Origin: Phoenix dactylifera
Taxonomy: Eukaryota; Streptophyta; Magnoliopsida; Arecales; Arecaceae
DNA length: 64,000 nt
NCBI RefSeq assembly: GCF_009389715.1
Contig: NC_052401.1
Span: 2,406,843-2,470,842 of the forward strand
Direction of reading: 5' to 3'
Shown here: one piece after another, positions 1 to 60,990 of the stretch
How the letters are laid out: the number at the start of each line of letters is the position of its first letter
How positions within the stretch are numbered: position 1 is the stretch's first letter
The notes under the pieces: model-generated
Told to the model about the DNA's origin: nothing
Databases searched by the model: none
The model's input: the letters and a program-made list of their open reading frames with translations, nothing else
Position numbers and translations under genes: made by a program

Positions 1-2764
1 AGAACTTTTCTAAATCAAGCAAGTCCTATTTTCGACCAACCCAAAAAAAATATTTAAATCCACCAATATTCTCAAGATTACTAATTGACTTTCCATCAAA
101 ATATCAATCTTAATTGTTTTAAGTCTCAAGTAGAGCCAAATAAGAATTATTAAGTCTCATCCCAGAGTATATTTTCCTTCTATATACGAGCTCCATGCAT
201 GATCCACATACAGATTTCAATGAATATTTTCTAGTCCAAGCTTTAAACATCTTTTTATAGATGAATCTTAAATTGCTACCAAAATAATTAACTTCAACTA
301 GAAGCAATATTCACAGTGCCTGATATCAAGTTAAACTTCCCAAATAATTACATTGCACGATAATAACTCATGATTAATATTCCTTCACTTAATTTAGTCA
401 AAATCTAATTAATCATAACTTGAAATACAAGTTGCTCTACCAAGAAAACTCTTAGAGTAGCTCATTCACACTTTGGTTACGACCATAATTAGGTTGCAGT
501 CTAATTTTAGCATTTCAAAATTATGATAAAATAACTCAAATTTATCAATAACAAAAGCAAATAAATGCCTTCATCTAATGGCCTAATGTCTACCCATCTC
601 TCAAACTTTCTGACGAATCCTAAAGATCCTAAAACTTAAGCTCCATCTGACTATTTCAAATACAATCCCTAGGAATCTGAAACCTAAGCTCTGATACCAC
701 CAAATCTGTCACGCCCCGAGCCCGAGGCGCGGCAGACGCCGCACGCCCGGTAACGCACTCCTCAATCCCGTGAGATCAAGCCTCTGGATCTGAAAAAATG
801 GAGAAAATAGAATAATGAGCTACACTAGCCCAGTAAGCAACAAAATACCCCAGAGTGGGGTCAGAGCATATCAGATCAAAATACAGGATAATGTCTGGAA
901 TAAATCATAAATAACATCGTTTTGTTGTTTTCAAAACTTATTATTATTTTTCCAAAAACTCTTATACCAGAATCTCAACATAATAGGCTACGGCCACGTA
1001 ACCCAGTGGCATGGGTTGCACAAGGTGCCAAACACCACTATTATTAAGCACCGGTGGTGTCCAAATACCACTATTCTAATCACCGGTGGTACGGTGTCGA
1101 AACCGGTTCCTCACAGATTACAAGTCGACAGGGCCAACGTATAATCCCCATTGGCGGGGCCAGAACAGAACAGAACAGATCATAGCCATGCTGAGAATAC
1201 ATATATATAAAAACAGATTTCATAAATTTTCCAATCATAGTTTACGGATTTCAAAGCATAATTTTCAGAAATTTAACATGCCAGACCCATTTTACTAAAT
1301 ACAAAACATATTTCAGAATTTAATCTATTTATCAAATAATTTAGAAATCACACTCGAAGTATTAAGTTACTTACCTCTTCTCGCTTGATTCCTATTTCAG
1401 GTAGACGGATCAGGTTCACCTGTTAAAGTTTAATTAATTTCTTGTTAATTTCAGACTAAGCAAAATTCAAAAATAATACTATTGGACATGGCCAAACAGA
1501 GCCCAAAGTTGGCCCATAATGGGCACGGCCTGATAGGGCCCATATCGGACTCGGCCCAATGGGCCCGCATAGACTCGGCTAAATAGGGCCCCCAAGGTTG
1601 GCTTCTAATTTGTTCATTTATACAATAAGATTTTTTTGCAGGGACTAATACTTAATTACAGGGTACTATTCTATAATAAAACTTGAGTGAGGGGACTAAA
1701 TAAATATCGTTGGGGGCCTTTATGTAATAAATCTTTCCTATAGGGATCAAATACAAATTACAGGAGTCCCTATTTCTGAAATAGCATACTGCCAAGGGCT
1801 TAACTGCAAAAAATCTGTTTATTGGTCAAATGGGTTTGGGTTTCGGATCCCGGGTTTCGGGTTCGGGTTCCAGTTCAGGTTCAGGTTCAGGTTCGGGTTC
1901 GGGTTCGGGTTCGGGTTCGGATTTTCGGGTTTGATCTGGATCCAAGTTGGGCCCATGGGGGTATTGCCCAACTGGGCCCAACCGGACTGGACTGGGCCCA
2001 AGTTGGGCCTGCAATGGACTGGGCCCAACGGCCCAATTTGGCCCGTGATGGGCCTCCTCCTTCCCCAAACTCCCCCCCACGAATAGGGGGAGAAGAAGAG
2101 ACGGAGGAGAGAGGGAGGTGGCCGGCGGGGGTGGCCGGCTTGGGTGGCCAGGGGCCACCCCTCGATCGACTGCCAGCCAGCCGCCATGGCGGCCGGCGGC
2201 GTTGCAGGGACCGACGGGGAGGAGAAGCAACCGAGATGATGATCTCGGCTGCTTGGGCTGAAACAGAGGAGAGGAGGATCTCGACGGCGGTCGACGGAGG
2301 TGGCAAATCCCGGCCGAGGGAGGCTCGGTCCGGCGTCAAGCGACGGCGGCGATGTTTGAAGCCGAGGGGTTGGATCTCGGAGCAGGGGAAGCTCGCGGAG
2401 GGGATCCGGGCGGCGCTCGGTCGGGAAGACACACTGATCGGAGAGGAGGAGGAGGGAAGGAGGAAAGAGAAGGAGGAAGAGGGCTCGGTTTGCCCTAGGG
2501 AGGAGGATTTGGGGGGTTTTTATCACCCCCCTCGTGATGGCTCTCCGCCGCGAAGATCGCGGCGGCCGAGCGAGATCCGCGGCCGCGGTTCGGCCGTGGA
2601 TGAGCTGGAGGGGGGGGGGTGCCGCGGGACTAGCGACATCCCCGCCCCGATCATCCCCGAAAGAGCCGGAGAGGATCGCAAATCGCGATCCTCTGTTCCG
2701 GCCTTCCAAAAAGAGAACGGGACTGAAGTCGGCAGGGGCTGCCGACTTCAGCCCGTGTCTCACA
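1..2764 (-). mobile_element. Tekay/Del-type Ty3-gypsy element, 5' LTR plus leader (partial)
   Basis: An LTR runs 707-2764 (2,058 bp). Read on the minus strand it starts TGTGAGAC and ends GGGGCGTGACA. Just inside it, at 688-699, is the complement of TGGTATCAGAGC, the initiator-Met tRNA primer-binding site. The element interior therefore lies to the left (1-687, AT-rich leader with no coding sequence seen) and leaves the window. The LTR holds an opposite-strand (GGTTCG)n tract near 1855-1920, a GC-rich block at 2050-2750 and a short inverted repeat by its outer end (2730-2757). The lineage call rests on the long LTR, the Met primer site and the stretch near 785-850 that resembles Del/Tekay LTRs. 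The other end is outside, so no target duplication can be checked. The long open frames across 1819-2793 on both strands are GC-rich LTR sequence. Confidence 0.8.
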
Positions 2765-4691: not shown

Positions 4692-7600
4692 ATGGCTTCC
4701 TTTCTTTGGATCCTCTGCTTCTTCTGTTACTTCTTCGTGTTCGCTAGCAATGGTGCGGCGGCTTATCGCAGAGTCTTCAGATTTCCAGAATCTCAGGAGA
4801 CTTCTTCTATTGCTAGCAACCAATATAGAACTGCATACCACTTCCAGCCTCCTAAGAACTGGATGAATGGTATGTTTTCCCTAACCCATCTTTGAGTCTT
4901 CTATATCTTTCAAGGTAGTCATGTCCTCAGTTAACATATCCCTTTGCATCAACCGTTTCATTCCCCAATTCATCAGCCTGTGTCATTTTCTTGCAGGTGA
5001 ATTTTGTATAAAGGATACACTTAATAATTGATTTTGTCAAAAAAAGTGGGATTAATTTTATTTTGAGAATAATACATATTTTGGAATCCACAAACAATTT
5101 TGCCCTAGATATGAGTTTAGATGGGCGATGATGTGTATCTATTGAATGCCTCGCAGATATATGTTGAATATGCAATACATATATTTTGAATATCCAATAC
5201 ACATTTGTCTAGCATGTCTTGTATTTAGACTTCTGGATAAAATTCTCTAGAGATCCTATATGTGTTCTGTTTTGCAAAATAACAATGAATATAATAATAA
5301 TCTGATTTTTTTTCTTGCGAAATCAATAACTACAAAATTTTGAACAATCGACTTCCAGGAAGAATGGGTCTCTCCAGGCTTTCCTCCCAAAATGAAATTG
5401 ATCAATAACAACCACCCAATTGCATTGCCTATCACACCTTATCTTGAATATGTTCGCTGTCCGGCTTCCTGACAGCTGAAATTTGTGAATTCGCGGAAGA
5501 ATTTGCAGCTCTCACTAGCCACCAGCACAAAGAAATTTCTATGGGGGATGGAGGTCTGTTCTTCTTTGGATGCTTTACTATGACATACAAGGTTATCAAG
5601 AAACAGCTTCAACAGTATGTTAGGAATTTGGTTTAGGTCTATTTGTTTTTATAAATCTCGGTTCTTCCTTCGTTTAGCGGTCGAGATAAATCAAGATCTC
5701 AGTCCATCTCGATGTAGGGCACCTGCCGAGATCTCCATAATTAAAAGCCTTGGGCACAAGCAAGATTAACAAATCCTGGCTGAACTGGCCTGGGGATCCA
5801 ACTAGCTAACCATCAGGACAGTGTCCCTGATCTAATACTATTAGGCGTTTAGATCCATAACAGGCCCAACCATAAACACCAGCATTCTCACAGTAAAACT
5901 GAAGCAATAAATATTAGCCTTGAGCAAGCTGTAGCCTGAGACAGCATCAACCTCAAGAGCTCATCTCGACGACTCAACCTCGCCCCCGTCAGGAGGGCAC
6001 ACTATACAAATCCAGATACCACCGAACTCCGAAGAGCCGTCTTTTCGTGAGCATTTAATCGAACAGATGCTGTGCATCGCAAGCCCTACCACTGTTCGCG
6101 GTGATCCCGAACTCGTGCAAACCGAGCAAAGAAAACAATTAACATTTAAATATTGCAAGTTCGTATATTTCCTTCATCATATCATGACAATATGGTAAAA
6201 CTTGGATTTGTTACGATTTTGCCAAGCTCTAACTTGTCTTTGTATTTATTTTGCATGCAATTGCCACGCAAACTTGGCCCATCAACCGAACCCCAGATCC
6301 AAACGGTACGTACTCCTTTATTCACGCATCTACGTTCCAAGTTCCCTTTCCAACTGAAATTTGAAAGGTTACACCCGCCTCCAACGCCAAAAAAAAAAAA
6401 AAAAAAAAACAGGACCCATGTACTACAATGGCATTTACCACCTTTTCTACCAGTACAACCCCAACAGCGCAGTGTGGGGCAACATCACTTGGGGACACTC
6501 CATATCGACTGACCTCATCAACTGGACGCCACAAGATCCTGCGATCCACCCGAGCAAGAGCTTCGACATCAATGGATGCTGGTCCGGATCCGCAACAATC
6601 CGTCGCGGCAGCGAGCCTGCGATCCTTTACACTGGCATCGACGCAGAGAACCGGCAAGTCCAGAATGTCGCGATCCCGAAGAACCTGTCGGATCCATTCT
6701 TAAGGGAGTGGTCGACGCCCGATTACAACCCGCTAATGGAACCGGTTGATGGGCTCGATCCAAGCCAGTTCAGAGACCCGATGACTGCTTGGCATGGCTC
6801 CGATGGCCATTGGAGGGTGGCTGTGGGGGCTCAGATTGCGGGGAATGGAACGGCCGTCTTGTACAAGAGTAGCGACTTCGTGCATTGGGTGCGAGCTGCA
6901 TCTCCCTTGCATACTTCGAAAGGCTCGGGCATGTGGGAGTGCCCCGACTTCTATCCAGTGCCATCGAAGGGAAGGCAAGGCTTGGATACGTCGGAGAATT
7001 CCAAAGATGTGAAGCGTGTGCTGAAGATGAGCCTGAGCGAGACGCAGAGCGACCATTATATGTTGGGAAAGTATGACATTGAGAAGGACATCTTTGTGCC
7101 AGACGAAACAGTCGATGATTATCGGGTATGGTTAAGGTATGATTATGGCAAATTCTATGCTTCAAAGACATTCTTCGATGAAGAGAAGAAGCGGAGGATC
7201 TCGTGGGCTTGGTTGAATGAATCGGACACCGAGGCTGATGCTTTGTTAAAGGGGTGGGCAGGAATTCAGGTGAGTCCTGATCAAAACACAAGTAGAACTT
7301 ACAAGTTCTTCTACAGTAAATTTACACAAATAGAACTTAGAAGTTCTTTTTAACTCTGCAAATTTACACCAAAGGAATCATAACTTTTGGTGGATTTCAG
7401 GCAGCTCCCAGGACAATCTGGCTAGATAGCAATGGAAGGCAACTGGTGCAATGGCCTGTTAAGGAGCTTGAATCTCTTAGAAGAAATGGAGCTCATTTGC
7501 AGAACACGGAGCTCAAGACAGGAGGCCTCTTCGAAATCAAAGGAGTAAAAGCTTCGCAGGCTAGTCTTTCATCTAATATCTCATTTGATGTTGAAAAAAT

Positions 7601-13800: not shown

Positions 13801-14910
13801 ACAGACCGGACCTAGTGCCTGTCCATACGTCAATGGGTTAACATAAACACTGCCAATTTTAACATTATTATATGACTCGGTGTCTCCCACTGTGTTAATA
13901 AATTTGACCCATAAAAGCATTACACTAAGCTCTCTTTTGATCCTGGTTCTCCATGCCCATAGTTTTTATGATCACTGACTGGCGTTGATCAGACCCGACC
14001 TCTTAATTTTAATTCACAAATCACTAGTTTAAGATATGGCATTCGGACGGGGTTGTATCTTTCGTGTGAAAGGTAGATTCATCATTCTTAGCACGGGTCC
14101 TCATTGGACTAAGAAATTTGAGCAGATAGATGAATGAAGAGTTTAGAGTGTTTTTTTGTTATCTTATCTTAATCCTATTGGTGATGCTTTTTTAATTAGA
14201 ATGCCACTGATTGTGCCGGTACCCAAGTATGAATAAGCTAATTAGAAGTTCTCATAGTGGATATTTCAGGTTATGATAATTGAAACTTGACCAAAATTAA
14301 GTCCAAAAGGATTGACCATAAAATATTATCGTGCAATGTAATTATTTATTTATTAGTTAATTTGGAAGTTTATTTTGATAGGGGGTATATTGAGATCTTA
14401 CATCTAGTTTAAATTTAATTATTTTGATGGTAAGTTAGGTTCGTTAATAAAAAATTGTTTATGACTTTATTTTTTTAATAATATTTATTGAAATACTTTT
14501 TGAGGTTAAAATTTATATGTGCATAATGCATCAAATTCTTACGTAGTTTTGATGCTTGCTCTCCGTTTAGAGAAACCACCCGCCGCCTACGTCTCCCCTC
14601 TCGGGACAAACGTCGAACTCCTCTGCCCTACCGTCAGAAAAAAAAAAAAACCAACTGCTGAAGCAGTCGCAAACAGTGGAAAAAAAAAAAAAGTCAACCA
14701 TAGATATCCAAAATTAACATGGAAAGAAAGCAGAAGAATCCATTAACAAAAAGAAACCATCGACGCCACCAACATTCCGCTGTAGTTTAATCTAAATTGC
14801 TGTCGTTTAATCTAAACTCTAGCTGTCTCCTAGACCGTATCCCTCTTGACATCTATCGTTAGGTTTTTTTTTTGGGTCAGAGCAAGAAGCCTTGATGCTA
14901 CCGCCTTCCT

Positions 14911-15587
14911 CTACCGTTTACGGTGGGGGCAGGGGCCGAGGAAAGCCGCGCAGAGCTCGTAGGCACAGCGATACGTGCCAGGAAGCGGCAGCACGTGCGA
15001 ATCTGGAGACCCACAGGCCTTGAACAGTCCCATCCCCGTTCCCTCCCTCGGTTCCTCCACCGCCAATGGGTGGCCGGTGCACGAGACGGCGTCGCCCGCG
15101 GCCGGCGAGGAGCCTACGGAGGGCTCGCGGAGTTGCTCCAGAGATGCGATCATGGCCTCGTGCTCCCTGGCGATCCTCTGCCACGTCTCCCTCTCCTCCT
15201 CTGCTCTTTTGAGGCGCGATTCCAGTTCCATCATTCGGTCCCGGGCCATCAACAATTCGCTCAGAAGGAAGGAGGTCATCGACTCGTCGCTCTGGAGAAG
15301 CGATAGCGTGTGCTGCCGGGTAAACGCCGCTCCTGGCCGGTTGCTCTGTTTTAGAAACAAAACAGAACTGAATTAAGATAGGATCTTTCTCGGACTTCTC
15401 ATCCCCTACAAAAAAAAAAAAACGAATTTCGTACTTGATTCAAAGAAGAAGAACGTACCTGGAGGCCAAGGTTGGTCAAGGATTGTTCCATGGAGAGAGG
15501 GCGATTGGCGAGGAAATTGGAAGGCGGAGCAACCAGCATCGGTGGTGCAGGAAAATAAAGACAACCCGGCGACCAGAAACCTGCCAT
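14911..15587 (-). CDS. Unknown small coiled-coil protein, copy A of inverted pair
   Basis: Two exons on the minus strand, 15459-15587 and 14911-15345, with a short GT-AG intron, give 187 residues. Exon 1 encodes a Pro/aromatic-rich start (MAGFWSPGCLYFPAPP) ending MEQSLTNLGLQ. Residues about 55-110 form a charged helix with heptad-like spacing (MMELESRLKRAEEERETWQR, then IAREHEAMIASLEQ), a probable coiled coil. A Gly/Ser/Cys-rich tail follows. No enzyme motif, signal peptide or membrane segment is visible and I do not recognise the family. Copy B lies head-to-head 1.5 kb away and the two start codons are about 1.48 kb apart. Both copies keep the same splice sites and open frames, which argues for function or a recent duplication. 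The last 30 residues differ completely between copies. Confidence 0.6.
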
Positions 15588-15835
15588 CTCCTCAATACCT
15601 GCGCTGTAGAAGAGAAGGAGATAGAAACAGAGAAGAGGAGAGCAGAAGTTATAGTTGGATCGAACGCAGGGAACGATTTATAATCGCTGAAGTAGGAGTT
15701 GGTGGTGGTGGTGAAGTTTTGTTGCAATATATATAGAGTTGCGAAGAGATCTAACTCGGAAAGGACTAGATCGGGAGGTTGAGTCATCGTTTCAACCAAT
15801 AAGGCCGAGTAAACCTAATTAAGTAAGCCCGGTAC
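15588..15835 (-). promoter_or_regulatory. Promoter of copy A (mirrored in copy B)
   Basis: The sequence upstream of copy A matches the sequence upstream of copy B (16800-17070) almost base for base on the opposite strand. Shared parts include a TATATATA box (15728-15735; 16922-16929), a CACCACCACCACC run in the leader and a GGTACAATTT block at the outer limit of homology. Both copies therefore probably started with the same core promoter. Confidence 0.5.
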
Positions 15836-16799
15836 AATTTAAGAAACGTGGCGACCTTGACGTGGCTGAGTCAAAATTGGAGCTGAAACGCCACGAGAAT
15901 TGCCCGCTAGGAGCATGTAACCCGCGCCGCACGTTGAGGTTACCTGTAATAAAAAAAAAAAAAACGATACCATATTAGCACATATTTTTTTATAATAAAT
16001 GATCTAGGGCTCAAGTCCTTATTTTTTGAACTCTAGATTGGCCCAAATAGGAGGTCCAAGACTGGTGACCACTCAACATTTGACTTTTTTTCGGTCTTCA
16101 CTAGCTTTCTAGTCATTGTTGGATTCCACTAGATCTGGCAATCCTTGATCGCTATAAGTTACCTATATTTTGATTTGATTTTTGATTGGATAGAATGAAC
16201 TTAACCGGATTGATTGGATTGTTGGTCCTTACCACCCGATCAGCCCTATCCTTCTTCATTCTTATCGAGCATGAAGCCCTGTCTCTCTTTGTTCAGGTCC
16301 CAATCATTGTGGAGGCCCTGAACCACCCTGATACTTAGACGGTAAACCGGCCCATTACTTCAACCCCAGCTAGATTTTTTTGAAATTTGATCACTATTGA
16401 TCTTCACGCGACGAGTTGAATTCGCCTTGCTCGGACTGACCTGGGCAGTCGGGCAGTGTCACTAGACGGACCTAATTTGGGGATATGAGGTCGTTTTCTA
16501 ATAGTATTTTGATTTTTGACCTCGCATTGCTTTTGAGACGATGAAGAAATATTTTAGAAAGATGTCTCTTTGACTTCGCATACCTGAATGGCTGACCATA
16601 AAAGAATGCAATGCCATAGATCATATGAAAGCAATAATAATTCTTAAAAATTTATTTAATTAAAAAAATATTCAAATAACTCTTACAATAGTTCCAAAGT
16701 AACATAACTATTTATTTAAATTAAATAAAATATTCTAACTAGTCTAAATAATCTTATTAGAACTCCAATAATTAAAAGTATCTTCAAAAAATCTAACCA
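15836..16799. other. Spacer of the inverted duplication with a Tekay LTR fragment
   Basis: The spacer has no credible gene. Its right part (about 16585-16800) matches part of the decayed Tekay-type LTR at about 18825-19045 in the same orientation. It is a truncated LTR piece directly abutting the right arm. The left part has an A-run near 15950-15963 and text without recognised origin. Confidence 0.5.
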
Positions 16800-17070
16800 C
16801 GGTCGCAACGTTTCCTAAATTGTACCGGGCTTACTTAATTAGGTTTACTCGGCCTTATCGGTTGAAACGATGACTCAACCCCACTATTCTAGTCCTTTCC
16901 GAATTAGATCTCTTCGCAACTCTATATATATTACAACAAAACTTCACCACCACCACCAACTCCTACTCCAGCGATTATAAATCGTTCCCTGCGTTCGCTC
17001 CAACTATTACTTCTGCTCTCCTCTTCTCTGTTTCTATCTCCTTCTCTTCTACAGCGCAGGTATTGAGGAG

Positions 17071-17707
17071 ATGGCAGGTTTCTGGTCGCCGGGTTGGCTT
17101 TATTTTCCTGCACCACCGATGCAGGTTGCTCTGCCTTCCAATTCCCTCGCCAATCCCCCTCTCTCCATGGAACAATCCTTGACCAACCTTGGCCTCCAGG
17201 TGAGTTCTCCTTCTTTGAATCAAGTACGAAATTCGTTTTTTTTTTTTTTTGTTGGGGGATGAGAAGTCTGAGAAAGATCCTCTAAAACAGAGCAGCCGGC
17301 CGGGAGCGGCGCCCACCCAGCAGCACACGGAATGGCTTCTCCAGAGCGACGAGTCGATGACCTCCTTGCTTGTGAGCAAATTGTCGACGGCCCGGGAGCG
17401 AATGATGGAACTGGAAGCGAGCCTCAGGAGAGCAGAGGAGGAGAGGAAGACGAGGCAGAGGATCGCCAGGGAGCACGAGGCCATGATCGCATATCTGGAG
17501 CAACGCCACCTCGTAGGTTCCTCGCCGGTTGCGGGCGACGCCACCTCCTGCACCGGCCACCCATTGGCAGCGGAGGAACCGAGGGAGGGAACGGGGAATG
17601 GGCTGTGCAACACCTGCGGGTCTCCAAATTCGCACGATCTCTGTGCGTGCGAGGACTTGGAGGCTACCTTGAAGGCGGTCGGCGAGTTCTTGCTCGGAAC
17701 CCAATAA
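17071..17707 (+). CDS. Unknown small coiled-coil protein, copy B of inverted pair
   Basis: Two exons, 17071-17199 and 17291-17707, joined by a GT-AG intron in phase 0, give 181 residues. The start MAGFWSPGWLYFPAPP, the MEQSLTNLGLQ end of exon 1 and the helix MMELEASLRRAEEERKTRQR match copy A closely. After the shared GHPLAAEEPREGTG block, copy B continues with CNTCGSPNSHDLCACED and an Ala/Leu-rich helix. Copy A has unrelated sequence there, so the 3' ends were exchanged or one was replaced. The Cys cluster (CNTC…CAC) could bind metal but is not a RING or other recognised finger. Function is unknown. The intact frame, conserved splice sites and duplicated promoter suggest both copies can be expressed. 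Confidence 0.6.
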
Positions 17708-17759
17708 AACCCCATACAAAACCCAGAGTTGTAGTTTAGATTAAACGACAGGAATTTAG

Positions 17760-19790
17760 ATTAAACGGCAACAGAAATTCGGTGACGTACGTCGATGGTT
17801 TCTTTTTGTTTTTTTTTTTAGGGGTACGTCGGCGACTCATAATGGTTTGTTTTTGTTACTGGATTCTTCTGGTTTCTTTCCATGTTAATGTTGGATGTCT
17901 ATGGTTGACTTTGTTTTTTATTTTTTATTATATCGTACTCTTGGCGACTGCTTGAGTAGTTGTTTCATTGACGGTAGTGGCAGCGTATGGTTGCTAGGGA
18001 CACAGAGCAAGTAACCTACAGATTTCAACATCAAAAAATATTTTAATAAATAGTATAAAGTTTTTTTAAAAAAATTAAGCAACTTTTTATTAATAAATTC
18101 TAATTTATCATCAAAATAATTAAATTCAAGCTAGAAAATAAATAATTACATTGCACGATAATATTTTATGGTCAATCCTCCTGCACTTTATTTTAGTCAA
18201 ATTTTAATTAATCATAAACTAAAATATCCACTGAGACTTGAGAGAACTTCCAACCAGCTGATTTACATTTGGGTACTAGCACAATAGGGTGATATTCTAA
18301 TTAAAACAAAAATTTACCAATAATTAAAGCAAATAAATATCTATCTCATTTTCTAATTTCTACCCAACTTTTAAACTTTTACGCAAACTCAAACAATCCT
18401 AAAAGCTAAGCTCTGATATAACTATTTCTGCCATGATCTATCACAATCCATAGTGATATTAAACTTGAGCTCTGATACCATTTGTAAAACCCATGACCTC
18501 ACCCAAAAAGGCTAGCCAAAAGGTATTTTAAATTGTTTGGTCCTGTTTAAGTACCCAAGATTTTCTCGACGAATAATTGATGTAAAACTAAACACACGCC
18601 CACGTGGGTCCTCGCATATTATCCTGTTATAGCCTCGTTAGGCTAAGAGTTTAAATCTATTCAAATCTAATCACAAACACCATGATCGGCCTGTGGTCAG
18701 TCTCTGTGAACCTGTATTGCAGTGTCCCCTACTCCACATAGACTATGGGTCGAATTCGCTTTGATATCACTTAATTTGTTATGCCCCAAACTCAGAGTGT
18801 AATAGATGCCGTATACATGTATCGCTGACCATATAAATATGCAGGGCTACATATCGTATTAAAGAAATAATAATTCTTAAAAATTTATTTAATTAAGAAC
18901 TTATTCAAATAATTTTTACAATAGTTTCAAAGTGATATAAGTCAACATATGTAAACTATTTACTTAAATTAAATAAAATATTTTAACTAGTCTAAATAGT
19001 CTTACTAAAACTCTAATAACTGAAAGTATCTTCGAAAGATCTAGTGCACTCCTCCAAGTCCCGAACAATCATGCATCTGGATCTGAAAAAAAAATAATAA
19101 TGAGCTACACTAGTCCAGTAAGCAACATAATATTCTAAAGTGAGGTCTAAGCATGCCAAGTAATTAGTTAAAAAGCAATATGTTGACTAAAAAATAAATC
19201 AATTCTTGAATAATACATATTTTTTTTGAAGTTTACTATTATTTTCATAAATTGATATTAGAAATCCAACATCAGATTATTATCACGTAACCGAGTGGCA
19301 TGTATCAAAATGCAGAAAGTTTCAAACATCACTATTCTTAATTGTTGATGGTACGGTATCTAAATACTTCTATTCTAATCACCGATGGTGCAGTATTAAA
19401 ACTAGTTTCTAAGATTACAAGTCGACAGGGCCAACGAATAATCCCCATTGGCGGAGCGAGAACATAACCATACGTAATATAATTTAAAATAATTACTATC
19501 ATAACATTAATATGCCTGACCCGTTTAACTAAATATAAAATAGATATTATAATCAAATTTAATCAACTAAAATACCCATGATAAAATTATATAATAACAG
19601 AAAGTGTCCATTTATATCATAATGCACAAAAAAAATCTGCAGGAGCCCCAACAACCAAGGAACCCTAATTAGTCTTGGCTTTCTCCCTTACCACGTGATT
19701 AAGGTATTATTTCTCTGCTCCATTTATTTATTCATCATTTTGAGGAGAGAATTTTTTGGCTTCGTTCCTCATTTTATCCCAAAAAATCTG
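17760..19790 (-). mobile_element. Decayed Tekay-type LTR-element sequence with two primer-site relics
   Basis: Leader-like AT-rich sequence runs from about 18040 to a primer-site complement (gctctgatacca) at 18469-18480. A separate block starting TGTAAAACCC (18482 to about 18757) looks like a short LTR of another family. A second, weaker primer-site complement lies at 18758-18769. From 18777 (TGTTATGCCCC) to about 19790 is a diverged relative of the LTR at 707-2764: it keeps the GAGCTACACTAG…CCAGTAAGCAAC text and the AAGTCGACAGGGCCAACG block. The element is old and heavily broken; no coding region is visible. Confidence 0.65.
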
Positions 19791-37364: not shown

Positions 37365-37428
37365 TGTTGGTGGAAAAATGGACCACCCCACAAATGTAAT
37401 TATAGCACCCAAATCCATCAGCAAGCTC

Positions 37429-37533
37429 GAGCTCATCCTAAGTGATTGAGCTCTTCCGCTCTCGAGCTCATCCTAAGTGATCGGGCTCTTCCGCTCTCGA
37501 GCTCATCCTAAGTGATCGGGCTCTTCCGCTCTC
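37429..37533. repeat. 35-bp tandem repeat, three units, 5' LTR
   Basis: Three units of GAGCTCATCCTAAGTGAT plus 17 more bases lie near the start of the 5' LTR. The same array in the 3' LTR (40962-41206) has seven units. Confidence 0.9.
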
Positions 37534-39619
37534 GAGCTCATAGACCAGAGAGCCGAGACCAGAGAACCGAGACCAGAGAGCCGAGACCAGAGAGCCGAGA
37601 CCAGAAGGCCGAGCACAGCAGGCCAAGCCCATGCCTTAGCCAAATATCCAATTTCCACCTAACCCTCTAAGGGACCTGACAACCCCACTACAACCTGCCG
37701 CTATCTCCAAGCCATCAAGGCATAAGATCTCCGCAGGTATTCGGCACGACTTGCCATTAATGCATGAGACCCCCTCAAGTCTCCGATGCATTCAGTCATT
37801 TAATGAACACGGCCCAAGACGATCTCCGGATCACTGAACTATCAGAGCGTATGGCTCTCCCTGACCGCCGGTTCACTCGGTAATAAATGCACTTACCATC
37901 CACGGACCCCAGGCCCACCACGGCCGGCGGTTCAACCACCCCAACAGGTCCGATCGACCGTGACAACTCCCTGGTTCCGGTCTGATTCGGCCTTATTTTC
38001 CACCACGCCATTAATGGGCCAAATCGTGCCCAATTATTACAAAACAGGACAAACCTCCTGTCACCTCCCAGGTAACAAAAATCCTCCTATAAAAGGAAAC
38101 CTGGGGGGAAAAGGGAGGGGGAACTGGGACTGGACTCTGAGGACTCTCAGGACCCTTGGGACTGAACCCTCTTGGACAGCACAGATACAATGGATGACAT
38201 CATCTTCTTCATCTTCTTGATCTAATCTAAATATTCTGGCTGTCTTCTCCACATACGGGCTTCCCTGCTCTCTCCACATATTGGCCCCCTCTGACTTAGG
38301 CATCGGAGGGCCGGCGCCGGGGAGCCCGGCCACCGGTTCTTCCTGCAGGACTCGCACCCCACAGTGGAGGACGCCACCAGTCGGCGCACCGTCGACCACC
38401 CTTCCAGCGGCGGAGCTCTGCCCCTCCAGGAGGACGCCACCAGCCGGCGCACCGTCGACCACCCTTCCAGCGGCGGAGCTCTGCCCCTCCAGGAGGACGC
38501 CACCAGTCGGCGCGCCGTCGATCGCCGCCCCTGCGGCGGAAGCCCCTCCTTCCCCGGCTTCGCGGCGGCCCCCGGATCCAATTTCCAGCAACAGTTGGCG
38601 CTAGAGGAAGGGCCCGAGTTCGCTGCCATGAAGCTAAGAAGCAAAGGGGCTTCCAATGCCTCTCGACGTCCTCCACCCAGTCCTGAGCATTCCGTCCGGA
38701 ACTCACCACCTCCGGCTGAGTCAGTTCATCAAGTTCGGCCGGAGCAGTTTGATGCCCTGGTGCAACAAGTGCAAGCCTTGGCTACCGCTGTCCAAAGCTT
38801 GCAACCCAGGGGCATCCCAACGGCACCGCCTCCTCCGGCTCCAGTTCAACCGGAGCCCCCTACAAGCGGGTTTCCCCTTCGAGTATCATGCTCCAAGTCC
38901 CAAACGCTCAGTCCAAAATTCACCATCAAGATCTCCGGTAGATCAAGTTCCACAAGTCCAACTCGAGCACTTCGATGCGCTTGTGCAGCAAGTCCAAGCG
39001 CTAGCTATTTGCAGCCCAAAGCCTGCAACAAGTGGAGGCCCCTCCTTTGCCGCCTCCACGGAATCATGTTAAGCAGAGGAAGAAACTTTCTCCTGACTCC
39101 CGAGCCATCTCGAATCAGGCATGGCTCCCGCTGCAACGACGTATGTGGGGGCAACCAGTGAGAAGTAGTAGTCCAAGTCTCACGTCAACGAGTTGGGGGG
39201 AAAGAGAAATAAAAGCTGAGGTCTGGAGAAGGAGAGTTATGGAGCTTTAAAATGGGATTGTAAGCCTCTGTGACAAAGGGTACAGCCCCATTAAATCCCA
39301 TTATCCTTCCAAGTCTTCTGTCTTCCGGCAGCAAGCAAGAAACCAGCATGTACTCCCTCCTTACGGGCGTAAGTCCTTGGGACGGCGCCCGCGACATTGC
39401 TCCCCTTTCAGAGCGTCGCCATCACTGAAGCCCCCGCCGAGCTCATGCAGACCGAGCTCAGAAACCCGAGCGCAAAACACCTAAAAAATCAAGCCAAAGA
39501 AGGCCGGTGCCGAACCAAGTCCTGAGGGACTTCGAAGCTCGAGAGCTATCAAAATATCTCCAAAAGCTACAGGACGCCACTTTGGCTTCAAATAAATTCA
39601 ATATTTTATCTATTTTCAG

Positions 39620-40845
39620 GTTAGCCAACGAGCTCGGCTCGTTCTCCTACCCTGACCACGGTCAGGATGCCCCAATATATTGGGATGCCCTGCCACAACG
39701 GGATGCCCCGATTCGTCGGGATGACCCGAGACGTCGGGGTGCGGTCTTAAGTGACCAGACGAGCTCGGCACGTTCTCCATCGGCTTCCACCGTCGAGCTC
39801 GGCTCGTGCTCCCCGACTATGAGTTGCGGTCCTCTCTGACCAGACGAGCTCGGCTCGTTCTCCTACCCTGACCACGGTCAGGATGCCCCGAGACGTCGGG
39901 ATGCCCCCGATCCGTCGGGATGCCCTGAGACGTCAGGATGCCCCAATATATTGGGATGCCCTGCCACAACGGGATGCCCCGATTCGTCGGGATGGCCCGA
40001 GACGTCGGGGTGCGGTCTTAAGTGACCAGACGAGCTCGGCTCGTTCTCCATCGGCTTCCACCGTCGAGCTCGGCTCGTGCTCCCCGACTATGAGTTGCGG
40101 TCCTCTCTGACCAGACGAGCTCGGCTTGTTCGCCTACCCTGACCACGGTCGGGATGCCCTGAGACGTCGGGATGCCCCGATCCGTCGGGATGCCCCGGCT
40201 ATAGGGAAGCTCGAGACGTCGAGATGAGTTGCGGTCCTCTCTGACCAGACGAGCTCGGCTCGTTCTCCATCGGCTTCCACCGACGAGCTCGGCTCGTGCT
40301 CCATCGGCTATGAGTAGTGGTCCTCTCTGACCGGATGAGCTCGGCTCGTGCTCCTACCCCGGCCTCGGCCGGGATACCTCGAGACGTCGAGATGCCCCGA
40401 TTTATCGGGCTGAACCAATACGTTGGGATGTAGTCTTCATTGGCCCAACAAGCTCGGCTCATTCTCTATTCTTGGATTTCTCTGCCGACGTCCCCAAAGA
40501 ACGGACTCCGAGCAGAGGAGCGTCTTCAGTCGCCTCGGCGCAGGGACGCACTTAGTACCAGGTACCCATTTATTTAATGTCTTTACATTATTTTATTCTT
40601 GGACTTTTCTCTGCCGACGTCCCCAAAGAATGGAGTCCGAGCAGAGAAGCGTCTTCAGTCGCCTCGGCGCAAGGACGCACACGGTACAAGGTACCCATTC
40701 ATTTAATGTCTTTACATTCTCATTTATCTTTACTTGGATTCTTCTCTGCCGACGTCCCCAAAGAACGGACTCCGAGCAGAAAAAGCGTCTTCAGTCGTCT
40801 TGGTGTAAGAACGCTCACAGCACCAGGACGATCGATGACTGAACT
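39620..40845. repeat. Internal repeat arrays of the non-autonomous Tat element
   Basis: From about 39620 to 40460 short GATGCCCCGA…GTCGGGATG modules and GACGAGCTCGGCTCGTTCTCC modules recur in blocks. From about 40475 to 40840 a unit of about 130 bp (CTCTGCCGACGTCCCCAAAG and following) occurs three times. The region has no coding capacity beyond chance frames. Confidence 0.75.
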
Positions 40846-40961
40846 ACTTCCTTCGCCCGAGCTAAAAAGCAGCTCGGACTCGGAAGTCGGGGGGTAGTGT
40901 TGGTGGAAAAATGGACCACCCCACAAATGTAATTATAGCACCCAAATCCATCAGCAAGCTC

Positions 40962-41206
40962 GAGCTCATCCTAAGTGATTGAGCTCTTCCGCTCTCGAGC
41001 TCATCCTAAGTGATCGGGCTCTTCCGCTCTCGAGCTCATCCTAAGTGATCGAGCTCTTCCGCTCTCGAGCTCATCCTAAGTGATCGGGCTCTTCCGCTCT
41101 CGAGCTCATCCTAAGTGATCGAGCTCTTCCGCTCTCGAGCTCATCCTAAGTGATCGGGCTCTTCCGCTCTCGAGCTCATCCTAAGTGATCAAGCTCTTCC
41201 GCTCTC
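40962..41206. repeat. 35-bp tandem repeat, seven units, 3' LTR
   Basis: Seven 35-bp units lie in the 3' LTR. Alternating GATCGGGCTC and GATCGAGCTC variants suggest expansion by 70-bp steps. The four extra units account exactly for the 140-bp length difference between the LTRs. Confidence 0.9.
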
Positions 41207-42329
41207 GAGCTCATAGACCAGAGAGCCGAGACCAGAGAACCGAGACCAGAGAGCCGAGACCAGAGAGCCGAGACCAGAAGGCCGAGCACAGCAGGCCAAG
41301 CCCATGCCTTAGCCAAATATCCAATTTCCACCTAACCCTCTAAGGGACCTGACAACCCCACTACAACCTGCCGCTATCTCCAAGCCATCAAGGCATAAGA
41401 TCTCCGCAGGTATTCGGCACGACTTGCCATTAATGCATGAGACCCCCTCAAGTCTCCGATGCATTCAGTCATTTAATGAACACGGCCCAAGACGATCTCC
41501 GGATCACTGAACTATCAGAGCGTATGGCTCTCCCTGACCGCCGGTTCACTCGGTAATAAATGCACTTACCATCCACGGACCCCAGGCCCACCACGGCCGG
41601 CGGTTCAACCACCCCAACAGGTCCGATCGACCGTGACAACTCCCTAGTTCCGGTCTGATTCGGCCTTATTTTCCACCACGCCATTAATGGGCCAAATCGT
41701 GCCCAATTATTACAAAACAGGACAAACCTCCTGTCACCTCCCAGGTAACAAAAATCCTCCTATAAAAGGAAACCTGGGGGGAAAAGGGAGGGGGAACTGG
41801 GACTGGACTCTCAGGACTCTCAGGACCCTTGGGACTGAACCCTCTTGGACAGCACAGATACAATGGATGACATCATCTTCTTCATCTTCTTGATCTAATC
41901 TAAATATTCTGGCTGTCTTCTCCACATACGGGCTTCCCTGCTCTCTCCACATATTGGCCCCCTCTGACTTAGGCATCGGAGAGCCGGCGCCGGGGAGCCC
42001 GGCCACCGGTTCTTCCTGCAGGACTCGCACCCCACAGTGGAGGACGCCACCAGTCGGCGCACCGTCGACCACCCTTCCAGCGGCGGAGCTCTGCCACTCC
42101 AGGAGGACGCCACCAGCCGGCGCACCGTCGACCACCCTTCCAACGGCGGAGCTCTGCCCCTCCAGGAGGACGCCACCAGTCGGCGCGCCGTCGATCGCCG
42201 CCCCTGCGGCGGAAGCCCCTCCTTCCCTGGCTTCGCGGCGGCCCCCGGGTCCAATTTCCAGCAACAAAAGTAACAATAGCTCTAGCATCCATTTGCACCA
42301 GCAAAATGAGCTTTAAGTATAAGATAGAA

Positions 42330-60423: not shown

Positions 60424-60990
60424 CGTGCAGGCATGTGTTTAGTCTCACATCGGTTATTTGTTGGGTAGATCTTGGATACTTATACAAGATCATGGAACCC
60501 AAATAATACCTTCCGGCTAGCTTTTTTAGGTGAGGTCTTGGGTTATTATAAATGGTATCAGAGTGGACCTGATCATAATCTTTGTGGACTAGAGAATACT
60601 GCAGTATGGGTTCATTGGAGCTTACTACGGGCTGTCGTTGTGCTTGTGATTAGATTTGAATGGATTTAAACTCTTATCCTGACGAGGACATAAGAGCTTA
60701 AATGGAAAAAGTATGTGAAGACCTGGGCGGGCGTGTGTTTAGTCCCATATTGGTTATTCGTTGGGTAGATCTTGGATACTTATAAATGATCAAAAAATTT
60801 AAATAATACTTTTTGGCTAGCCTTTTTGGATGAGGCCCTGGATTGTTACAAATGGTATCAACGCGAACCTGATCCATAATTTTTGTGGACTAGGGAACAT
60901 TGCAGCACAAATTTGTTTGGGGCTGACCACAGGCTGATCATGGCGTTTGTGATTAGATTTGAATGGATTTAAACTCTTATCTTTTTGAGT
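60424..60990. repeat. Tandem LTR-like units of about 290 bp with a Met primer site
   Basis: Two diverged units (about 60424-60705 and 60725-60990) share TGTGTTTAGTC.CA.AT.GG, GGGTAGATCTTGGATACTTA, AATGGTATCA and GATTAGATTTGAATGGATTT. Unit 1 keeps TGGTATCAGAG (60552-60562), the initiator-Met primer-site sequence. This suggests fragments of a short TRIM-like LTR element that expanded in tandem. Confidence 0.45.

Follow-up and report, generated by a model that had tools for sequence, protein, structure and literature searches.

The 64,000-nucleotide stretch of Phoenix dactylifera DNA examined here [NC_052401.1; C10:2406843-2470842], referred to as the window, carries a head-to-head pair of two-exon genes that most likely adds a degenerate new member to an already known gene family and was duplicated within retroelement-rich DNA. 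The genes appear to be RING-less derivatives of RING E3 genes of the BOI (BOTRYTIS SUSCEPTIBLE1 INTERACTOR) type, and the two copies are probably decaying, retroelement-associated duplicates that are heading to pseudogenes. An unknown gene family is replaced in this way by a worn-down duplicate from a known family of regulators. The pair would also provide an example of retroelement-rich DNA, inverted duplication and gene conversion acting on a plant gene, in which the order of events may be read from the structure. Searches covered a genome of 773 Mb; C1, C2, C5, C10, C14 and C100 are contig labels, and L numbers are locus labels.

Self-comparison of the window aligns two arms, 14994-15859 and 16798-17636, over 870 bases at 88.7% identity (E=0), in agreement with a separate repeat search. 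The inverted pair, which a preliminary description of the window had noted, is far beyond chance and is continued outwards by two extensions, 14190-14379 with 18110-18306 (79% identity) and 14403-14520 with 18014-18135 (75% identity). The left gene lies on the minus strand and the right gene on the plus strand, and GT..AG splicing gives open frames of 187 and 181 codons, respectively, reproducing the two-exon genes described earlier. TATATAT and ATG are found at equal offsets in both arms, which agrees with the mirrored promoters described earlier. However, the term "intact" holds for the open frames only, since neither copy has an unbroken RING at its C terminus. The pair consists of the following features, in which C or H with a number denotes a zinc ligand when the RING is described.

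15588..15860, minus strand: left promoter and 5′ untranslated region (5′UTR), with TATATAT at 15735-15729.
15459..15587, minus strand: left gene exon 1, 43 codons, defined by its frame and GT donor and homologous to exon 1 of the C2 and C5 paralogs.
14911..15345, minus strand: left gene exon 2 with stop, RING degraded (ligands C1→F, C3→G, H4→Y, C5→Y, and C8 lost).
16798..17070, plus strand: right promoter and 5′UTR, with TATATAT at 16923-16929.
17071..17199, plus strand: right gene exon 1, 43 codons, defined by frame and splicing.
17291..17707, plus strand: right gene exon 2 with stop, RING degraded.

Besides the arms, a genome DNA search detected paralogs on C2 and C5, and a protein search added a distant copy on C100. 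The C2, C5 and C100 proteins all carry the C-terminal C3HC4 RING of a BOI-type E3 ligase, matching zf-C3HC4_3 (PF13920) with 38.8, 38.9 and 42.7 bits, respectively (Pfam cut-off 27), whereas no PF13920 match was found for the arms in a Pfam search at E up to 1. The left protein is 61% identical to its C2 counterpart and 59% to that of C5, and a phase-0 intron occupies the identical site in C2, C5 and both arms. Since sequence, intron position and phase all agree, descent from the palm RING paralogs is supported, and the protein family that had not been recognised earlier is that of the C2 and C5 genes. In an exon 2 tree, placement of the arms nearer C5 or nearer C2 is not separated (58% bootstrap); all three topologies pass the approximately unbiased test, and the one joining C2 with C5 fails by bootstrap proportion from resampled estimated log-likelihoods (bp-RELL). 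The C2 paralog (L015, C2:4474000-4483900) has GTG at the position of the first ATG in C5, and its next in-frame ATG aligns with the start codon of the window genes.

Assignment to the BOI type, as opposed to another RING-HC group, was made by architecture and by the presumably BOI-like C-terminal sequence of the paralogs, and not by direct comparison with Arabidopsis BOI or BRG proteins. As in BOI and BRG proteins, the C2 and C5 paralogs have an N-terminal region, a long predicted central helix and a C-terminal C3HC4 RING. The window copies are unlike them in that the RING is destroyed, by differing lesions, and in that they have N-terminal and internal in-frame deletions. The account of BOI in PMC11432932 gives its parts as an N-terminal region, a central coiled coil and a C-terminal RING, and the RING survey of PMC6118397 assigns 11 members to the Arabidopsis BOI group. 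Two other identities were tried and rejected. RUFY4-like was the best result of a Pfam search using only the arms but falls under the cut-off (E=0.0068, 17.2 of 27 bits), and complexin was represented in a PDB search with the arms only by fragments at E=0.088 and 0.34, for the right protein alone.

Seven of the zinc ligands were scored column by column on the alignment, the eighth lying beyond the scored columns. The left copy retains C2, C6 and C7, the right copy retains C1, C2 and C5, and the eighth ligand is absent from both proteins, leaving 3 of 8 per copy. In the left copy the RING was lost through substitutions and an early end. In the right copy, a 21-nt deletion has removed C3 and H4, C6 is replaced by L, and C7 and C8 were lost with a change of frame, in a gap of 30 nt relative to the left copy and of 31 columns relative to C2 and C5. 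As the lesions differ between the copies, at least part of the RING loss postdates the duplication.

Pairwise counts before the RING give 7.5 synonymous and 35.5 non-synonymous differences between the arms (dS 0.076, dN 0.115). Branch models fitted by codon maximum likelihood to the pre-RING part of four genes (191 columns) gave dN/dS ratios (omega) of 1.52 on the arm branches (p=0.30 against 1), 2.35 on the stem (p=0.08) and 0.46 among the paralogs (p=0.0017), and the picture was the same with the RING part included (1.34, 1.85 and 0.38). Selection since the duplication, for which the preliminary description had looked to dN/dS, is thus not supported; that description had counted a neutral ratio near 1, taken together with a lack of transcripts, against its own proposal, and the ratio of the arms is not distinguishable from 1, whereas that of the paralogs is well below it.

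Several observations nevertheless weigh against decay of the pair and leave room for selection since the duplication. The frames are open over 181-187 codons, and the splice sites and TATA boxes are retained. When every branch was left free, the estimates of omega were 0.72 on the left and 2.54 on the right copy, although the gain in log-likelihood is just 0.88 for two extra parameters. Between the arms there is one indel in the pre-RING coding sequence (6 nt) against 15 in the non-coding parts that were compared (p=0.12 per substitution). On the stem, 6 of 6 pre-RING coding gaps are multiples of 3, compared with 2 of 9 non-coding gaps, in a count that left out one shared RING gap of 1 nt (position 17670). 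Shared gaps at 17042 take away the part of the sequence where the C5 start codon lies; being ahead of the ATG of the arms, they were treated as non-coding. With every pre-RING coding gap of the stem in frame, the single ancestor was still selected for frame while it was changing fast. For the period since the duplication, a neutral simulation gave P=0.23 that no stop would arise in both body frames (0.18 with the RING part), and open frames therefore need no selection over that period. Strong selection for open frames was rejected on this result.

The open frames, together with the in-frame stem gaps, could also be read as the mark of functional RING-less decoys, in which the helix would bind the substrates of full-length BOI proteins, or their partners, and block ubiquitination as a dominant negative. 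Omega is above 1 for the stem and the right copy, which would suit such a role but is not significant. The long helix seems to be retained, as residues 6-73 are predicted to be helical in the AlphaFold2 model of left exon 2, 46 residues having a predicted local distance difference test score (pLDDT) of at least 90. However, the models, built from alignments of 5 sequences each, do not discriminate; that of C5 exon 2 also starts with a long helix, its pLDDT is mostly <50 after residue 88, and no confident RING was predicted even for this intact paralog. By analogy with Arabidopsis fragments, binding to partners might persist without the RING, as the yeast assays given in PMC11432932 place the binding of BOI to EXO70E2 outside it: the RING-deficient fragment 1-229 and fragment 151-304 bind, and 1-150 and 230-304 do not. 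On the other side, purifying selection after the duplication is not detectable by codon maximum likelihood, and the RING was lost through different lesions in each copy. A literature search for RING-less dominant negatives found none. A decoy function is considered unlikely. Quite unlikely, too, is a fuller version, in which positive selection reshaped a BOI paralog associated with a retroelement, the RING disappeared, and a decoy pair with shared, gene-converted promoters today restrains the full-length BOI ligases of palms. If the copies were expressed, they would be candidate natural RING-less inhibitors of BOI ligases.

Decay of the duplicates has not been uniform along the arms. The arms differ at 10/162 positions in the promoter, 3/110 in the 5′UTR, 5/129 in exon 1 and 6/88 in the intron, but at 37/313 in exon 2 before the RING, 25/104 in the RING and tail, 52/243 in the 3′ flank and 54/284 in the element. 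The inner ∼490 bp are therefore much more alike than the outer parts, both for non-coding differences (19/360 inner versus 106/527 outer, Fisher 7e-11) and for exon 1 versus the pre-RING part of exon 2 (p=0.008). General constraint does not explain the inner identity, because in the 5′UTR C2 is ∼41% different from the arms, and C2 and C5 differ from each other by 30%. This argument is rough, and to that extent tells against our account, as the 5′ alignment is poor and the arms are 58-59% different from C5 in the 5′UTR. Judged from the sequences, the step in identity would be the result of gene conversion between the inner halves. Less convincing alternatives are a new regulatory constraint within the pair and a faster rate of change in the retroelement sequence on the outside; exon 2, to which neither applies, is already three times as divergent as exon 1.

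Retroelement sequence lies outside and between the two genes, and is made up of long terminal repeat (LTR) fragments and of leader fragments associated with a motif resembling a primer-binding site (PBS).

1..706, minus strand: leader of a younger related element, the reference copy of the preliminary description; a PBS-like motif occupies 690-699, and the end of the LTR is at 707.
14154..14546, plus strand: leader fragment downstream of the left gene, matching L031, L032, L048, L052 and L053.
15996..16550, plus strand: LTR-interior fragment in the spacer, on the 5′ side of the left gene; further copies run on beyond the junction.
16576..16795, minus strand: LTR-end fragment in the spacer, adjoining the right arm, in opposite orientation to the 15996..16550 piece.
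18018..18480, minus strand: leader fragment on the 3′ side of the right gene, with a PBS-like motif (18467-18480) at its end.
18763..19570, minus strand: LTR part after the right leader, with the LTR end near 18777.

The PBS-like motif is presumably of the tRNA-iMet type, and at 690-699 is read on the minus strand. The order of this motif and an LTR end is found at 690-717 and again at 18467-18787, so that the label "leader" suits 1-706, where the motif stands just before the LTR end. Four fragments each have at least 40 listed matches, counting the copy in the window itself. For 1-706, 40 of 687 candidates were scored, and 12 places including the window are at least 99% identical; 11 of the 39 other scored places have 99-100% identity. 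The resemblance to outer ends noted earlier also stands, at 67-68% between the flanks and 1-706, and older leader fragments, from a related family, make up the flanks downstream of both genes. In their presumed tRNA-iMet-like PBS, long LTRs and, in L053, an LTR pair of 2.3 kb, the elements resemble Ty3-type LTR retrotransposons. They are unlike these in that only fragments surround the genes, and the clade, Tekay, is a label of the preliminary description. A weak match to the start of a reverse transcriptase (RVT_1) in the related elements L042 and L033 scored 18.5 bits, under the Pfam cut-off of 29.6. In L030 (C1:24176000-24183500), an element of the 1-706 family is present in tandem, with at least 2,944 bases repeated at 100% identity and a period of 4,557. 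On the right flank, a dispersed repeat (18470-18772) separates the leader from the LTR, and two copies of it that are 80% alike are found at 60427-60981.

The leader junction is common to both arms: the 3′ flank of the gene starts at 14546 in the left arm and at 18018 in the right arm, where a deletion adjoins the junction. As both arms have it, this junction predates the inversion. The spacer is 938 bases long, 775 of which belong to the two LTR pieces, 15996-16550 and 16576-16795. The latter is the fragment adjoining the right arm that was reported earlier, and the former, of the same family in the other orientation, had been overlooked. The identical leader junction 3′ of both genes, with LTR sequence at the centre, supports the proposal that the gene was duplicated together with retroelement sequence.

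A retroelement may have captured the gene in antisense, which would account for the retained intron, and carried it here, the arm then being leader, gene and LTR. The arrangement agrees with this in both arms, where the gene is flanked by leader and by LTR fragments that share one orientation and run antisense to it. However, the left junction at 15996 falls inside an LTR, and L047 matches L050 and L051 beyond it. As other LTR copies continue past this junction, no LTR start borders the gene. Furthermore, the arms meet different parts of the LTR, and no third gene copy with leader was found in the genome DNA and protein searches. Capture is very unlikely; it concerns origin, and can hold together with the other explanations.

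For the pair as decaying duplicates, the following history is proposed. A BOI-type RING E3 gene would have been copied away from its paralogs and come to lie beside LTR-retroelement sequence, where the single copy evolved fast with its frame retained. The segment including the 3′ retroelement leader would then have been duplicated head to head, with the central junction within LTR fragments of one family. Both copies would subsequently have lost the RING by differing lesions and drifted at an approximately neutral rate, while gene conversion kept the inner region, with promoter, exon 1 and intron, similar. The pair may then have no function and, if transcribed, would produce RING-less coiled-coil proteins without ligase activity. 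Two neighbouring genes of the window, encoding a PPR protein and an invertase, were the only ones compared, and no match to either was found near C2:4.48 Mb or C5:0.31 Mb (100 of 337 candidates scored for the PPR gene); the nearest is an invertase, 6 Mb off on C2. With its neighbours unmatched near the paralogs, the pair fits a transposed duplicate.

The palindrome might alternatively serve as a source of small RNAs, a read-through hairpin giving rise to small interfering RNAs that silence the pair and perhaps the C2 and C5 paralogs. Of the 1251 21-mers of the left arm, 212 have an exact counterpart in the right arm; 19 exact 21-mers are shared between the left arm and the C2 region, and 6 between the right arm and the C5 region. 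These few are all that reach the paralogs, with 0 for left arm and C5 and 0 for right arm and C2. An analogy is offered by the Arabidopsis PAI1-PAI4 inverted gene repeats, for which such silencing is described (PMC3203196) and in which a single gene is likewise present twice in inverted orientation and has unlinked paralogs at other places. However, the PAI genes are tail-to-tail with read-through from an upstream promoter (PMC3203196), while the window genes are head-to-head with mirrored promoters, and their own transcripts are not complementary. The earlier suggestion that an expressed pair can yield hairpin RNA does not follow, since both mRNAs are sense copies and a transcript crossing both arms would be needed. 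A hairpin origin of small RNAs is highly improbable.

Rfam and ARAGORN scans of the whole window returned nothing. The invertase (glycosyl hydrolase family 32) exon at 6358-7350 is 62-63% identical to matches at C14:2468007 and C14:2510915, and the published sugar locus in PMC6794320 has cell wall invertases at ∼2.469 and 2.512 Mb of linkage group 14, the same places as these matches. The region 32256-46752 matches C10:2150000-2158000 in inverted orientation, in three pieces of 95.4-99.0% identity, the fetched stretch ending inside the match. The two form a segmental inverted duplication ∼290 kb apart, and each copy contains a PPR (PRORP-like) gene. The 4.9 kb at 37365-42266, with 1.17 kb direct repeats (99.1% identity), are absent from the other copy of this segment, and a 5-base overlap at the empty site indicates that they are probably a recent LTR-element insertion.

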